A DNA stretch of 64,000 bases from Sulfurovum sp. TSL1 (GTDB lineage Bacteria; Campylobacterota; Campylobacteria; Campylobacterales; Sulfurovaceae), in assembly GCF_019972135.1 (NCBI RefSeq), contig NZ_BPFI01000001.1, positions 851,106-915,105 on the forward strand. The letters run 5' to 3'. Below the pieces are notes generated by a model. The model was not told the origin of the DNA, made no database searches, and saw only the letters and a program-made list of their open reading frames with translations. Positions 51,997-58,111 of this stretch are shown here, piece after piece. The translations under genes were made by a program, and so were the position numbers. Numbering within the stretch: the first letter of the stretch is position 1; every line of letters begins with the position of its first letter.

Positions 51997-53709
51997 ATGC
52001 GTAGTAATAAAGTCAATTTGTTAAAAAAGATGTTAGGAATGCTTCTAGTGGCACCTGTAATGCTGTCACTATCACTATTTGCCGCAGATCCGGTTAACCA
52101 TTGGAAACTGGATGAGAATGACACTAGTAGTGAAATTTATGTTGATTCTATTGGTGCTGCTGATGGAACATGTGCAACTTCACATTGTCCTACTCCTAGT
52201 GTAGGTCAAATTAATGGTGCACAATATTTTGATGCTGCTGAGCTTGATAGAATCGATGTCAATAATACAACAAGCTTTGAGTGGGATCAAGATGCTAATA
52301 TCACCATAGAATTCTGGATGAAGTCACAGATGGTCCCAATGAGTAATAGAGTTATGATAGGACGCGCTAATACTTTGGGTATCTTATGGTATATTGGAAT
52401 AAATGGAACGGATGCTCCAGGACATGTTAGAGTTGCCGTAGCTAATGATAAAAGTGCCCCTGCAGACAATGTTGTGGGGAATAGTCAAACAAACGTCACT
52501 GATGATGTATGGCATCACATAGCATTTGTTCTTACCGAGCCTGAGGTAAAGGTATATATCGATGGTCAATTTGATTTTAATTTAACCAGATCAGCAGTAA
52601 GTGACCTACATGCTAGTTCAGATGTGCACTTTGGTTCACTAAATGATTCCGCTAGTTTATCGTATACAGGTAATCTGGATGAGATAACTGTTTATACTGC
52701 TGCAATTGATGCAGGACTGATTCAACAGCATTATGAAATGGGATTACAGCCAAATTTAGCAGAAGTAACACCAGTACCAACACCTACAGATGATAATACC
52801 CCAGACTATACTTTCTCTTCAGATGAAGCTGGAACTATCACTTATGGTGGATCTTGTAGCTCTGCTGCAACAGAAGCAACAGCTGGTAATAATACAATTA
52901 CATTTGATACACTTGCAGACGGGGTATACGGCGATTGTACGATCACTGTAACAGATGAAGCAAACAACTCTTCAGCTCCATTATCAGTAACTGAATTTGT
53001 GGTGGATACGACTGTACCAGATGTCACTGCCCCTACCCTTGCAGAAGTAACCGCGGTGACATCACCTACAGATGATAATACCCCAGACTATACTTTCTCT
53101 TCAGATGAAGCTGGAACTATCACTTATGGTGGATCTTGTAGCTCTGCTGCAACAGAAGCAACAGCTGGTAATAATACAATTACATTTGATACACTTGCAG
53201 ACGGGGTATACGGCGATTGTACGATCACTGTAACAGATGAAGCAAACAACTCTTCAGCTCCATTATCAGTAACTGAATTTGTGGTGGATACGACTGTACC
53301 AGATGTCACTGCCCCTACCCTTGCAGAAGTAACCGCGGTGACATCACCTACAGATGATAATACCCCAGACTATACTTTCTCTTCAGATGAAGCTGGAACT
53401 ATCACTTATGGTGGATCTTGTAGCTCTGCTGCAACAGAAGCAACAGCTGGTAATAATACAATTACATTTGATACACTTGCAGACGGGATATACGGCGATT
53501 GTACGATCACTGTAACAGATGAAGCAAACAACTCTTCAGCTCCATTATCAGTAACTGAATTTGTGGTGGATACAACAGTTCCAATTATTAGCGACGGTGG
53601 TGGCGGTGGTTGTACATACAACCCTGACAGTAAGCACTTCGATATGGTGTTCTTACTGATGATCGCATTGGGACTTTTCTATCCGTTTAGAAGAAGATTC
53701 ATCAAGTAA
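51997..53709 (+). CDS. secreted LamG-domain protein with three Ig-like repeats and a C-terminal sorting-type anchor
   Basis: A 570-residue surface protein. A signal peptide (MLGMLLVAPVMLSLSLFA) is followed by a LamG/concanavalin-like domain (about 30-245, NHWKLDENDTSS, VWHHIAFVL), then three nearly identical 94-residue Ig-like repeats, each with two Cys (GGSCSS and GDCTIT). The C-terminus is a Gly-rich stretch with Cys (GDGGGGGCTYNPDSKHFD), a hydrophobic segment (VFLLMIALGLFYPF) and RRRF, the layout of a C-terminal sorting signal similar to JDVT-CTERM. It probably binds sugar and is anchored or released after processing. It lies within the exopolysaccharide locus. Confidence 0.85.
   Translation: MRSNKVNLLKKMLGMLLVAPVMLSLSLFAADPVNHWKLDENDTSSEIYVDSIGAADGTCATSHCPTPSVGQINGAQYFDAAELDRIDVNNTTSFEWDQDANITIEFWMKSQMVPMSNRVMIGRANTLGILWYIGINGTDAPGHVRVAVANDKSAPADNVVGNSQTNVTDDVWHHIAFVLTEPEVKVYIDGQFDFNLTRSAVSDLHASSDVHFGSLNDSASLSYTGNLDEITVYTAAIDAGLIQQHYEMGLQPNLAEVTPVPTPTDDNTPDYTFSSDEAGTITYGGSCSSAATEATAGNNTITFDTLADGVYGDCTITVTDEANNSSAPLSVTEFVVDTTVPDVTAPTLAEVTAVTSPTDDNTPDYTFSSDEAGTITYGGSCSSAATEATAGNNTITFDTLADGVYGDCTITVTDEANNSSAPLSVTEFVVDTTVPDVTAPTLAEVTAVTSPTDDNTPDYTFSSDEAGTITYGGSCSSAATEATAGNNTITFDTLADGIYGDCTITVTDEANNSSAPLSVTEFVVDTTVPIISDGGGGGCTYNPDSKHFDMVFLLMIALGLFYPFRRRFIK
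52781..53572 (+). repeat. 282-bp tandem repeats (2.8 copies)
   Basis: Units start at 52781, 53063 and 53345. Units 1 and 2 appear identical; unit 3 differs at one base (GGGGTA to GGGATA, Val to Ile) before ending near 53572. Each encodes one 94-residue Ig-like domain. Such identity at the DNA level points to recent duplication or gene conversion, and the copy number could change by recombination. Confidence 0.95.
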
Positions 53710-53780: not shown

Positions 53781-53910
53781 ATATCACTCACTCTCAATTT
53801 GAATCTCATAAAACAAAAACTCTAATATATACTTCATCAAAAAAATTGATCATAAACATATATTTTAATTTTATATTCTTTTCAGTTTAAGTGTGTATTA
53901 TTCCGGTATG

Positions 53911-53948
53911 ACTATGACTTAAGGTACTACTAAACCATAAGTCATAGT
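53911..53948 (+). other. 14-bp hairpin directly before riboswitch 1
   Basis: ACTATGACTTA pairs with TAAGTCATAGT, and an inner GGT/ACC pair after one A-A mismatch closes an 8-base loop. It ends 12 nt before the conserved core of the first aptamer. It is not part of the known aptamer fold. A comparable hairpin precedes the second aptamer. Confidence 0.6.
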
Positions 53949-54038
53949 AATAAAAGTATTAGGCCAAACCTGTTGTGAAGCAGGGACGGAAAGCTTCAGG
54001 TCTTTTGAAAAAAAGATAGCTGGGTTGCATTTATTTAG
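53949..54038 (+). promoter_or_regulatory. c-di-GMP-I (GEMM) riboswitch 1 of a tandem pair
   Basis: The core AGGCCAAACC is followed by P2 CCTGTT-GTGA-AGCAGG, with a GNRA loop, then GGGACGGAAAGC. P3 is TCTTTT-GAAA-AAAAGA, and the closing strand is ATAGCTGGGTTGC. All signature elements of the GEMM aptamer are in order. By hand alignment the base matching G20 of the Vibrio Vc2 aptamer is G, which favours c-di-GMP over cGAMP. It lies 350 bp before the lipoprotein gene and 140 bp before a second aptamer. Confidence 0.9.
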
Positions 54039-54126
54039 AACTATCGTATCTCAAACGATGACTCTTCATAAATTATAACTTTTATATAAAGTTTATCATC
54101 CTAATCTTAATAAAAATTCAGACATG

Positions 54127-54166
54127 TGGGTAATATTGAGGTAATCCTCTTTCAATATAATTCCCA
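54127..54166 (+). other. hairpin directly before riboswitch 2
   Basis: TGGG/CCCA, ATATTG/CAATAT and AGG/CCT pair around a TAAT loop with small internal loops, ending about 15 nt before the core of the second aptamer. It lies between the tandem aptamers and could be the expression platform of aptamer 1. Confidence 0.55.
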
Positions 54167-54169
54167 TCA

Positions 54170-54272
54170 AGTTAGTGAGAAAAGCCAAACCTATTGTGAA
54201 GTAGGGACGGAAAGCCAAGGATCTCATAATAATCATGAGATAGCCTAGTTGCCTTTGTTGAGCACAACAGAG
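54170..54272 (+). promoter_or_regulatory. c-di-GMP-I (GEMM) riboswitch 2 of a tandem pair
   Basis: AAGCCAAACC, P2 CCTATT-GTGA-AGTAGG, GGGACGGAAAGCC, P3 ATCTCAT/ATGAGAT and ATAGCCTAGTTGCC. Compared with copy 1, the P2 pair G-C has changed to A-T on both sides, which supports a selected RNA fold. Just after it CTTTGTTG-AGCA-CAACAGAG (54253-54272) forms an 8-bp hairpin overlapping the 3' strand of P1, so the two structures could exclude each other. The lipoprotein start codon is 115 nt further on. Confidence 0.9.
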
Positions 54273-54387
54273 TAATGCTACATGCATATTGGTATATTCC
54301 ATTCTTCATAGAAGATTTCCCTCCCCTACTTTTCAATATATTTTCTTCACAACAATACACGTTCATACAAAGAAGGAATATAAACGA

Positions 54388-55959
54388 ATGTTCAGACTTA
54401 ACAATATCAAACAAAATGTACTTATACTGTCTTTTGCAACATTGCTTGCAGGTTGTGGCGGTGAAGGAACAGCGACTACAACAGATTCAACTTCAACTGA
54501 TCTCACTACAACCTCTACAGCAAAAGTAGTGAAGATTGATGTCAGTGCCATTACTACAGAAGATTCTGCCACCATCGAGTGGAATCCTTATGGGTATACT
54601 ACAAAATCAGTAGAGTATGGTACAAGTAATAAGTATGGTTCAGTAGTTTCAGTACAAGAAGAAGGTACTGTTACCTTATACAATTTACAGGCAAATACAG
54701 AATATCACTATAGAATAGTCTCCGAAGATGAGAAAGGCAGACCCGTTGTAAGTAATGATATGACTTTTACAACACTTGCCGCAAGTAACCAACCGATCGT
54801 AACGGACCCAGTGCCAACTGATCCGATCATAACTGAACCTGCACCAACTGACACAAACGCAACAGAACCAACAGTAACCGATCCTGTGTCAACAGAACCA
54901 ATCGTAACCGAAGCGGCGCCAACTGTCACAGAACCGGTTATAACTGATCCGATCGTAACAGAACCAATCGTTGAAGAGACTCAAGCTGTCTGTATAGAGG
55001 GTGATGCAAAAATTGAAGGTCATGTTACGGATAAAGATACTGGAACAGGATTAGTAGGTGTTCAAGTCAATATAGGTGGCTGTGTCACTACCACTGATTC
55101 TCAAGGTGATTATATACTGATGAATATCGCTGTAAGCGATAAAGCTTCTGTCATGTTCAGTGCAGAAGGTTATTATACAAATAGTACGAATATTCAAATA
55201 ACCGATCTATCCCCAAATTACACCACTGTTGAAATAGATAAATATATTAGCCAGTGGACTTATGATAGCCAGACTCTAGTTTCAGGAGCCCATATCGTGA
55301 TACCTTCCGGAGTTTATATCAATCATGATGGAAGTCCTTATATAGGGCAAGTGACTGCCGGATTATCATATCGTAACAGTACAGAAAAAGGCAGTGAAAT
55401 AGTATTTCCTGGAGAGTATAAAGGAGAAGATAACTATGGGAATATCGTTCCATTCATCTCTTATGGGTTTACTGTGATAGACCTTACAGATGAATCAGGC
55501 AATGCATTAAGTGTAGCTGATGATATAACTTTAATATTTGAGGCAACTGGTGCACCAGCTGAGAGTATTCCTTTATGGTTCTATGATTATGAGCAAGGTA
55601 CCTGGATCGAAGAAGGATATGCCACTCGTCTAGCAGATGGAACATATGAAGGTACAGTTTCCCATCCGGGAACATGGAGTCTGAGCCAACCTATTGAAGA
55701 TGCTTCGGGTATCTATACTGATCGTATCCTATATACAGATGGTACACCTGTAAAAAATCTAAGGGTACATGCTATTGGTGACAACTGGATCAGTACCGAT
55801 CTTAGCACAGATGAGAATGGAGTATTTGAAATTGAAGTGATACCAGGTCAAGCATTCACATTGAGAGCATATCACTATGATGATAAATATGGTGCTACAT
55901 ACAACGGTATGATATCCGCTGTGGCTCCGGGTGAAACTATTGATAATTCCAGCTTATAA
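54388..55959 (+). CDS. surface lipoprotein with fibronectin III-like domain, Thr/Pro linker and carboxypeptidase-regulatory-like domains
   Basis: From the ATG at 54388 (AAGGAA upstream) it is a 523-residue lipoprotein with lipobox LLAGC (Cys about 22). After a Thr/Ser-rich stretch comes a fibronectin III-like domain (SATIEWNPYGYTTKSVEYGT, LQANTEYHYRIV), then a 65-residue Thr/Pro linker of D-P-x-x-T-E-P type, a CarboxypepD_reg-like domain (IEGHVTDKDTGTGLVGVQVN), a beta domain with QGTWIEEG-like ends and a C-terminal domain (YTDRILYTDGTPVKNLRVHA) shared with the next gene. It stands behind two c-di-GMP riboswitches, so it is likely a matrix or adhesion protein. Function unproven. Confidence 0.8.
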   Translation: MFRLNNIKQNVLILSFATLLAGCGGEGTATTTDSTSTDLTTTSTAKVVKIDVSAITTEDSATIEWNPYGYTTKSVEYGTSNKYGSVVSVQEEGTVTLYNLQANTEYHYRIVSEDEKGRPVVSNDMTFTTLAASNQPIVTDPVPTDPIITEPAPTDTNATEPTVTDPVSTEPIVTEAAPTVTEPVITDPIVTEPIVEETQAVCIEGDAKIEGHVTDKDTGTGLVGVQVNIGGCVTTTDSQGDYILMNIAVSDKASVMFSAEGYYTNSTNIQITDLSPNYTTVEIDKYISQWTYDSQTLVSGAHIVIPSGVYINHDGSPYIGQVTAGLSYRNSTEKGSEIVFPGEYKGEDNYGNIVPFISYGFTVIDLTDESGNALSVADDITLIFEATGAPAESIPLWFYDYEQGTWIEEGYATRLADGTYEGTVSHPGTWSLSQPIEDASGIYTDRILYTDGTPVKNLRVHAIGDNWISTDLSTDENGVFEIEVIPGQAFTLRAYHYDDKYGATYNGMISAVAPGETIDNSSL

Positions 55960-56009
55960 TTAAAAAATGAATAAGTAATATATGGGTAACACTCTTATAC
56001 TACAATTTG

Positions 56010-56100
56010 AACACTTGAAAAAGCCAAACTTGTTGTGAAGCAAGGACGGAAAGCCCAGGACCTCAATGTATGAGATGGCCGGGCTGCCTAAATACTCCGT
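56010..56100 (+). promoter_or_regulatory. c-di-GMP-I (GEMM) riboswitch 3
   Basis: AAGCCAAACTT, P2 CTTGTT-GTGA-AGCAAG, AGGACGGAAAGCCC, P3 CTCA/TGAG, and ATGGCCGGGCTGCC. P2 again shows paired changes relative to copies 1 and 2 while keeping the GTGA loop, and the G20-equivalent is G. TATACT and TACAAT boxes just upstream (about 55997-56006) could give it a separate promoter. It precedes the small lipoprotein gene by about 90 bp. Confidence 0.9.
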
Positions 56101-56575: not shown

Positions 56576-58111
56576 ATGAAAAAAATATTTTTACTCTCAA
56601 CTGCCTCGCTTGCAATGCTGATGGCAGATTTTACATTGGAAGGAGATAAGTTAACTCCTGTGTCAGGAACCATATCGACAGTGACTGATCCTACTACAGT
56701 ATCTGATCCTACTACAGTATCTGATCCTACACCTACTATGGACACAAGTAATCCTTACCTTGAACCAATTAACCTCCCTGCATGTAATGCAAATGATCCG
56801 GAAGTACAATTTATTAGCAGTAATGCTGACTGGGGTACAATAAACGATAGCAGTAAAAGAATTTTTTGTGTCAAACCAGGAAACTATGGTAGTGTTACCC
56901 TGACAGCTGATGGTACACCTAATGCAAGAAGATACATACTTTTAGATAATGGTAATACTGCACACCCTGCTTCACTATCTGACTCGCAACAGGCAAACGT
57001 ACAGATCAATCTATCGGGAGCCAACTACTGGACAATTGACAGGATGTCAACACTTAACACCACAGCAAGTACAGCAATGGATATAAAGGGGCAATCCCAA
57101 TACAATATAATTAACCGTATGCATATTAAAAATTTTAATACATATGCTATTACCATTTATCATAGATCAGACAACAATACTATACAAAAGAGTAGGATAG
57201 CAGAACAATCTCTTGCCGGTAGAAAAGCTGATGGAGTAGGAATATTCTTTCAAAATGATATAAGTTGGGAGAATGATACTTATATATACAACACCAAAAT
57301 AATACAAAATGAGTTTAAAAATATTAGTGACAGTATTCAGCTTATTAGAAGATGGAAAGATTGGGCCGCAAGCATTCCTGTGCCAACAGGTTATGATGGA
57401 ACTATTATTGATAGTAACCATATCTATATTACACCTGATATTTATACTAACGGTAGCGGTAGTCTTACACCAAATGGAAACTACGCTTATGCTGAGAATG
57501 GTATTGACCTAAAAGCAGGTTCAGACGATGCGAACAATAAAATCATTATCACTAATAACTATATTTGGGGTTATAGAGTATCTGATAAAACAGGTTCTTC
57601 GCTTAGCAGTTGGGGTGATGCAATAACTATCCATTATGGTGTAGAAAACCTTACAATAGAGAACAACTATATCTTTGATTCTGCAAGAGCTATAGGTGCA
57701 GGTGATTCAAAAGGATTTGCTTACGGTCTGAGCGATTCAAGCATATCAAACAACATACTATGGGATATTATTGATTTTGACTTGGTACTTTGGGATTCTA
57801 ACAACTTAACAGTTGAAGGAAATATCATCCACGGTGCTAAAAACTGGGCATCATTTAATGCATTCACTAATTCAACACTAAATAATAACGTTGTGATTAA
57901 TGCAGGGGGCATGTCTGGTTCACTTGGCAGTGGTACCACTATGTCAAATACATTTAACTATGCTAATGCTACTGATGCCAACCAGGAAGATCTCACATTT
58001 ACAACAGATCATTATACAACTCCAAGAAATATAACACTTAAGGGGGCTGCTCCAACTACTGCTAGTCCTTATTATGATGTTATTAATATTTCAGTACCGA
58101 CAGCTAATTAG
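56576..58111 (+). CDS. secreted right-handed parallel beta-helix protein
   Basis: A 511-residue exported protein. Signal peptide KKIFLLSTASLAMLMA is followed by a short Thr/Pro linker made of two or three D-P-T-T-V-S repeats, and then many beta-helix coils with N-ladders (NNTIQKSRI, NKIIITNNYIWG, NLTIENNYIFD, NNLTVEGNIIHG). The fold is that of polysaccharide lyases (pectate or alginate lyase-like) and phage-type depolymerases, but catalytic residues could not be assigned. Its place after the riboswitch-controlled lipoprotein and beside the exopolysaccharide genes suggests a role in trimming or binding the polymer. Confidence 0.8.
   Translation: MKKIFLLSTASLAMLMADFTLEGDKLTPVSGTISTVTDPTTVSDPTTVSDPTPTMDTSNPYLEPINLPACNANDPEVQFISSNADWGTINDSSKRIFCVKPGNYGSVTLTADGTPNARRYILLDNGNTAHPASLSDSQQANVQINLSGANYWTIDRMSTLNTTASTAMDIKGQSQYNIINRMHIKNFNTYAITIYHRSDNNTIQKSRIAEQSLAGRKADGVGIFFQNDISWENDTYIYNTKIIQNEFKNISDSIQLIRRWKDWAASIPVPTGYDGTIIDSNHIYITPDIYTNGSGSLTPNGNYAYAENGIDLKAGSDDANNKIIITNNYIWGYRVSDKTGSSLSSWGDAITIHYGVENLTIENNYIFDSARAIGAGDSKGFAYGLSDSSISNNILWDIIDFDLVLWDSNNLTVEGNIIHGAKNWASFNAFTNSTLNNNVVINAGGMSGSLGSGTTMSNTFNYANATDANQEDLTFTTDHYTTPRNITLKGAAPTTASPYYDVINISVPTAN
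56684..56731 (+). repeat. 18-bp direct repeats in the beta-helix gene linker
   Basis: The unit CCTACTACAGTATCTGAT is repeated in tandem, with a third partial copy, coding D-P-T-T-V-S. Slippage here would change the linker by six residues without a frameshift. Confidence 0.75.

Follow-up and report, generated by a model that had tools for sequence, protein, structure and literature searches.

The leader of a 523-aa surface lipoprotein gene in Sulfurovum sp. TSL1 (positions 53896-54388 of the 64,000-nt stretch analyzed here, which is called the window) is probably a stack of two promoter-riboswitch modules, the downstream one of the PHO type. In this arrangement an upstream promoter, P1, would transcribe RNA bearing aptamers 1 and 2, and a second promoter, P2, which lies between the two aptamers and includes an 11-bp direct repeat of the PHO type, would yield RNA bearing aptamer 2 only. 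A third module, made up of a PHO-type box and aptamer 3, would drive a small lipoprotein gene further downstream. When phosphate is limiting, a PhoB-like response regulator would probably increase transcription from the two box-bearing promoters, and c-di-GMP would then gate each RNA, most likely at the start of translation. The 523-aa lipoprotein gene would thus probably integrate phosphate and c-di-GMP, a nutrient signal and a lifestyle signal. That P2 is used as a promoter, which regulator acts on it, and whether c-di-GMP raises or lowers expression are all predictions from sequence.

If this reading is right, a phosphate-type promoter and a c-di-GMP riboswitch are directly coupled on the same gene, and tandem riboswitches could be explained by stacked promoter-aptamer modules rather than by cooperativity.

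Table 1. Predicted regulatory elements and genes in and around the lipoprotein leader (window coordinates)
Feature	Position	Strand	Basis
Predicted -10 of upstream promoter P1, TATTAT	53896..53901	+	Alignment of six leaders; block conserved in close relatives
c-di-GMP-I aptamer 1	53953..54032	+	RF01051, 63.9 bits, E 3.4e-10
PHO-type box and -10 (predicted promoter P2)	54130..54161	+	Exact pattern match: GTAAT-N6-GTAAT-N10-TATAAT
c-di-GMP-I aptamer 2	54174..54256	+	RF01051, 61.8 bits, E 1.2e-9
Candidate anti-aptamer strand TTTCCCTCCCCTACTTTTC	54316..54334	+	Pairs with aptamer-2 P2-stem/core strand in unconstrained fold, z -3.57
Conserved TTTTCTTCAC, complementary to Shine-Dalgarno and to aptamer-2 5' strand (54175-54183)	54341..54350	+	Six-leader alignment; putative function
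Shine-Dalgarno GAAGGAA of 523-aa lipoprotein gene	54372..54378	+	Sequence
Lipoprotein gene, 523 aa	54388..55959	+	Lipobox, fn3-like domain, Pro/Thr-rich linker, CarbopepD_reg_2, C-terminal repeat of that kind
Second PHO-type box and -10 (TACAAT), ahead of aptamer 3	55975..56006	+	Pattern match
c-di-GMP-I aptamer 3	56013..56091	+	RF01051, 56.4 bits, E 2.4e-8
Small lipoprotein gene, 120 aa	56187..56549	+	Paralogue of 523-aa lipoprotein C-terminus
Secreted right-handed beta-helix protein gene	56576..58111	+	PF13229, E 2e-6

Identity and conservation of the aptamers

A preliminary description of this DNA reported two complete GEMM aptamers about 220 bp apart on the same strand, and the Rfam covariance search that it proposed as a check bears this out. 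The RF01051 model matches both copies over its full length (positions 1-87) and far above its gathering score of 35, with 221 nt from start to start and a gap of 141 nt between them. A third full-length aptamer, absent from that description, precedes a small paralogous lipoprotein gene. The P2 stems and GUGA (GNRA) loops of aptamers 1 and 2 are as originally quoted; as to the compensating changes claimed for these stems, a double change from G-C to A-U is indeed present, but at one pair only.

The pocket residues G20, A47, and C92 are present in all three aptamers, as read from the alignments and the sequences, and position 20 was tallied across 68 collected aptamers. G20 marks the three as c-di-GMP type and rules out the c-AMP-GMP (GEMM-Ib) variant, the cGAMP type, which carries A20. 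The c-di-GMP-I-GGC variant (RF03167) was rejected as well: its model scores the aptamers at 58.7, 58.0, and 57.1 bits, all under the cut-off of 59, and the variant has G47 where these have A47. Those scores, slightly below threshold as they are, might be taken to mean that the aptamers recognize another ligand, either cGAMP or that of the GGC variant, whose ligand is unassigned. The near-threshold match can be put down to general similarity, however, since the GGC variant carries G at position 47, and with G rather than A at position 20 and A rather than G at position 47 in every copy, a different ligand is very improbable indeed. Aptamers 1-3 are predicted to bind c-di-GMP and to respond to it.

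The tandem arrangement is kept in the orthologous leaders of five relatives (G157, G003, G166, G027, and G059), where two aptamers stand at nearly identical spacing ahead of the lipoprotein gene. Aptamer copy 1 is closer to copy 1 of other genomes than to copy 2 of its own genome. This likeness, together with the shared spacing, indicates that the doublet is older than these species and that both copies have been retained.

PHO-type boxes in the leader, at phosphate genes, and across the genus

The P2 element, which the preliminary description had missed, ends 12 nt 5' of aptamer 2. It combines a perfect TATAAT (54156-54161) with a direct repeat of 11-bp period located 10 bp 5' of it, formed by GTAAT at 54130-54134 and again, after six nucleotides, at 54141-54145. 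This spacing between repeat and -10 is typical of PhoB promoters. PHO boxes are laid out as direct repeats of 11 nt (PMC4415409), and the element at 54130-54161 satisfies that layout, an 11-nt-period repeat standing about 10 bp ahead of a -10. More generally, a -10-like hexamer is found 10-19 nt 5' of the aptamer in 28 of the 68 collected aptamers (7.4 expected), an enrichment which implies that these aptamers normally start right behind a promoter. Further upstream, between the predicted P1 and aptamer 1, a 10-bp perfect inverted repeat, CTATGACTTA...TAAGTCATAG, occupies 53912-53947 and is partly kept in relatives.

The original suggestion was that tandem aptamers can give a steeper or two-step response. 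Such a response requires both aptamers on one RNA and would hold only for P1 transcripts; transcripts starting from P2, the conserved promoter-like element 12 nt 5' of aptamer 2, would carry a single aptamer. A classical same-class tandem, in which P1 acts alone, both aptamers share one RNA, the response to c-di-GMP is steeper, and the spacer is inert, would fit with the frequency of same-class doublets (PMC9481103), with the retention of both copies in orthologues, and with the many other tandems in the genus that lack a box between their copies (about 13 pairs visible). We nevertheless consider the classical tandem unlikely, because a perfect -10 and a PHO-type repeat at promoter spacing lie 5' of aptamer 2 and are kept in four close relatives, and because the box is also found with a type-2 aptamer alone ahead of other genes. 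In a further relative, G059, both aptamers are retained and the box between them is degenerate.

The box region (54128-54166) also contains a dyad, a potential hairpin that is kept in most relatives and shows double changes at one pair. The conserved feature of the spacer could then be this dyad, ATATTGAGG...CCTCTTTCAATAT, acting as an RNA hairpin that serves as the expression platform of aptamer 1. The consensus hairpin has 12 pairs, one of them with a double change, and most of these pairs are kept in G059 despite its degenerate repeat. That said, double changes are limited to the one pair, no U tract follows the dyad, and at the phosphate genes described below the direct repeat and -10 occur without any such dyad, all of which makes an RNA element a decidedly improbable account of the spacer.

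The proposed role of the box as a PHO-type promoter element draws on its distribution in the 2.35-Mb genome. A strict pattern, namely a GTAAY direct repeat (Y at the fifth base) with TANNNT as the -10, occurs at just five sites: the boxes at 54130 and 55975 and the promoters of pstC, a PiT transporter gene, and a porin gene. As the pattern was derived from the inter-aptamer spacer, independent evidence comes only from the site ahead of aptamer 3 and from those at the phosphate locus. The three sites outside the window are contained within 8.4 kb, immediately 5' of the pstC, PiT (PF01384, E 5e-102), and Porin_5 genes, and three random sites would cluster so closely with a probability of about 6e-5. 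Also encoded at this locus are PstS-, PstCAB-, and PhoU-like proteins and two complete OmpR-type regulators. A matching set of five sites is present in the close relatives G003, G157, G166, and G027, with one extra site in G027.

The repeat may perhaps not be specific for PhoB, given that in two other genomes, G028 and G164, the pattern also stands 5' of hydrogenase, isocitrate-dehydrogenase-divergent, and regulator genes. In these two genomes (L100, L131, L134, L137, L138, and L143), GTAAY-repeat promoters stand 5' of [NiFe] hydrogenase, of a gene oriented divergently to one resembling isocitrate dehydrogenase, and of other genes. In this subclade, a second or a broader regulon may depend on the box. 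On the strength of such additional sites, the repeat could instead be the target of a different member of the OmpR family, such as a regulator of the envelope or EPS; the presence of the repeat at phosphate genes would then reflect a shared DNA preference and not phosphate control. This is a possible but rather unlikely interpretation, since the three other sites of the present genome all fall in the phosphate locus and, in the relatives that were searched, PiT and porin genes again carry box sites.

The association of box and aptamer is itself recurrent. Among 78 genomes of the genus, a box was found within 34 nt 5' of an aptamer core at 18 sites in 12 genomes, and a control with the reversed pattern gave 0 such sites in the same 78. 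The box-aptamer pairs precede genes for secreted or surface proteins, including relatives of the 523-aa lipoprotein, beta-helix proteins (L152, L159, and L160), and lipoproteins that match no Pfam family, of which one (in G164) adjoins a DUF1501 protein. The components also occur as single modules, the box with a type-2 aptamer at gene 2 of G166 and gene 1 of G027, and a type-1 aptamer in G059. In G028, and in G061 from another genus, a box without an aptamer lies directly 5' of lipoprotein homologue genes. A reversed order relative to the window is seen in G049 (L063, about 992-1123), where the box is 5' of a type-1 aptamer and an apparent aptamer remnant, GGGCAGAAAGCC, lies between them.

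Whether the genus reuses the fusion of a PHO-type box with a c-di-GMP-I aptamer as a two-input cassette is about an even question. Such a cassette would have been set before several unrelated secreted families (TTR-domain lipoproteins, beta-helix proteins, and lipoproteins beside a DUF1501 protein) and would couple the remodeling of surface or matrix to both phosphate limitation and c-di-GMP. The tandem in the window would then be one copy of the cassette, stacked beneath a second riboswitch with its own promoter.

Expression platform, target genes, and the wider regulon

No intrinsic terminator was found on the coding strand between 53650 and 56600, so control at the translation start is likelier than attenuation; control may also be Rho-dependent. 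In the window, G157, G166, and G027, the 3' part of the leader competes with the fold of aptamer 2 more strongly than in any of 60 shuffles, and platform competition is also significant for aptamer 3 of the window. The anti-aptamer structure reached no significance against shuffles in G003, G059, or gene 1 of G027, leaving unsupported the idea that it is conserved in all orthologues. The idea that the switch strand pairs with the 5' strand of the aptamer was likewise dropped, as this pairing did not rise above shuffles. Complementarity to the Shine-Dalgarno sequence beats most shuffles in most type-2 leaders, and the predicted exposure of that sequence drops from about 0.5 to 0.15 upon isolating the aptamer in the window, G157, and G166, with no clear sign in G003 and G059. 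These folding models, which leave out tertiary structure, lean weakly toward c-di-GMP acting through aptamer 2 as an OFF signal.

The tandem does stand ahead of a surface lipoprotein gene, as had been described; its ATG at 54388 is the correct start, and the lipobox reads LLAGC. The fibronectin-like domain attributed to the protein is less secure, in that residues 55-129 show fn3 similarity that falls below the Pfam threshold (21.1 vs 25 bits); a purple acid phosphatase N domain also scores within these residues, at 22.3 bits against a cut-off of 30. A TTR-like CarbopepD_reg_2 domain exceeds its Pfam cut-off. Homologues of the protein are encoded in 24 of 150 genomes of the family, and over 80 aa its C-terminus is 54% identical to the 120-aa lipoprotein, whose gene is possibly co-transcribed with the adjoining beta-helix gene. 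Immediately 5' of the riboswitch leader is a gene for a LamG-domain surface protein (51997-53709) in which a segment of about 80 residues occurs three times almost unchanged.

The genus has a large c-di-GMP riboswitch regulon: RF01051 matches occur in 56 of the 61 genomes sampled, at up to 21 copies per genome, and the present genome has 15, 14 of them above the cut-off. Genes 3' of these 15 aptamers include the two lipoprotein genes of the window, a DUF4382 lipoprotein gene, and genes for hybrid histidine kinases of the NIT and other types. Additional targets are small PAS proteins, a weak TonB-receptor match 5' of a gene for a GGDEF-EAL protein, a second GGDEF-EAL protein, and, by inspection, a large SpvB/RHS-type protein and a pseudopilin-like operon. 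The listed targets fit a c-di-GMP regulon, with the exception of threonine synthase, which has no obvious fit.

Several of these aptamers have features of their own. A decayed tandem precedes the DUF4382 lipoprotein gene (L016 9452-9611; G000:C1:685452-685610), its upstream copy lacking the 3' half (29.8 bits). The aptamer 5' of the TonB-receptor-like gene, which is followed by the GGDEF-EAL gene (L013/L023 3136-3213; G000:C4:89135), has U20 in place of G and may be altered in ligand affinity or specificity. Another aptamer (L022 4721-4795; G000:C4:62720) is located 251 nt 5' of the threonine synthase gene, an unexpected target, and that in front of the SpvB/RHS-type gene (L019 8774-8849; G000:C1:770773) precedes a secreted protein of more than 2,800 aa.

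Relation to known systems

Riboswitches in tandem are a familiar architecture (PMC9481103, PMC4759541), and same-class c-di-GMP-I arrays were already catalogued in 2022 as 347 doublets and 12 triplets (PMC9481103). The claim that the regulated module is undescribed does not extend to the doublet, which is ordinary in kind. Of more interest, and apparently not yet described, is a feature that the preliminary description had not seen, the PHO-type promoter box that is repeatedly coupled to c-di-GMP aptamers. Among the papers searched for c-di-GMP riboswitches together with the Pho regulon, the single match concerned a different mechanism.

The box shares with the PhoB-type PHO boxes an 11-nt-period direct repeat before the -10 and a location at pst, PiT, and porin genes, but its repeat, a putative regulator-binding site, is GTAAY as opposed to the CTGTCAT of E. 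coli (PMC4415409). The Bc3-5 triple tandem of Bacillus thuringiensis (PMC4759541) and the catalogued doublets (PMC9481103) likewise place several complete c-di-GMP-I aptamers of the same class and ligand in one leader. The present leader differs from them in its predicted second promoter, with a PHO-type box, between the copies, as well as in its lack of intrinsic terminators, its genus, and the family of its target gene.

Phosphate status and c-di-GMP also converge on surface attachment in Pseudomonas fluorescens, where low Pi acts through the RapA phosphodiesterase on the LapA adhesin (PMC3032545). There the phosphate signal passes through an enzyme that degrades c-di-GMP, whereas in the Sulfurovum leader box and aptamer would act on the promoter and the RNA of a single gene. 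A further comparison is gbpA of Vibrio cholerae, also a surface-protein gene, which has a CRP-activated promoter and the putative Vc1 riboswitch, a c-di-GMP aptamer, in its leader (PMC4545359). In that case the transcription factor is CRP in place of a PHO-type box, the aptamer is single, and transcriptional control by c-di-GMP is independent of Vc1 (PMC4545359).
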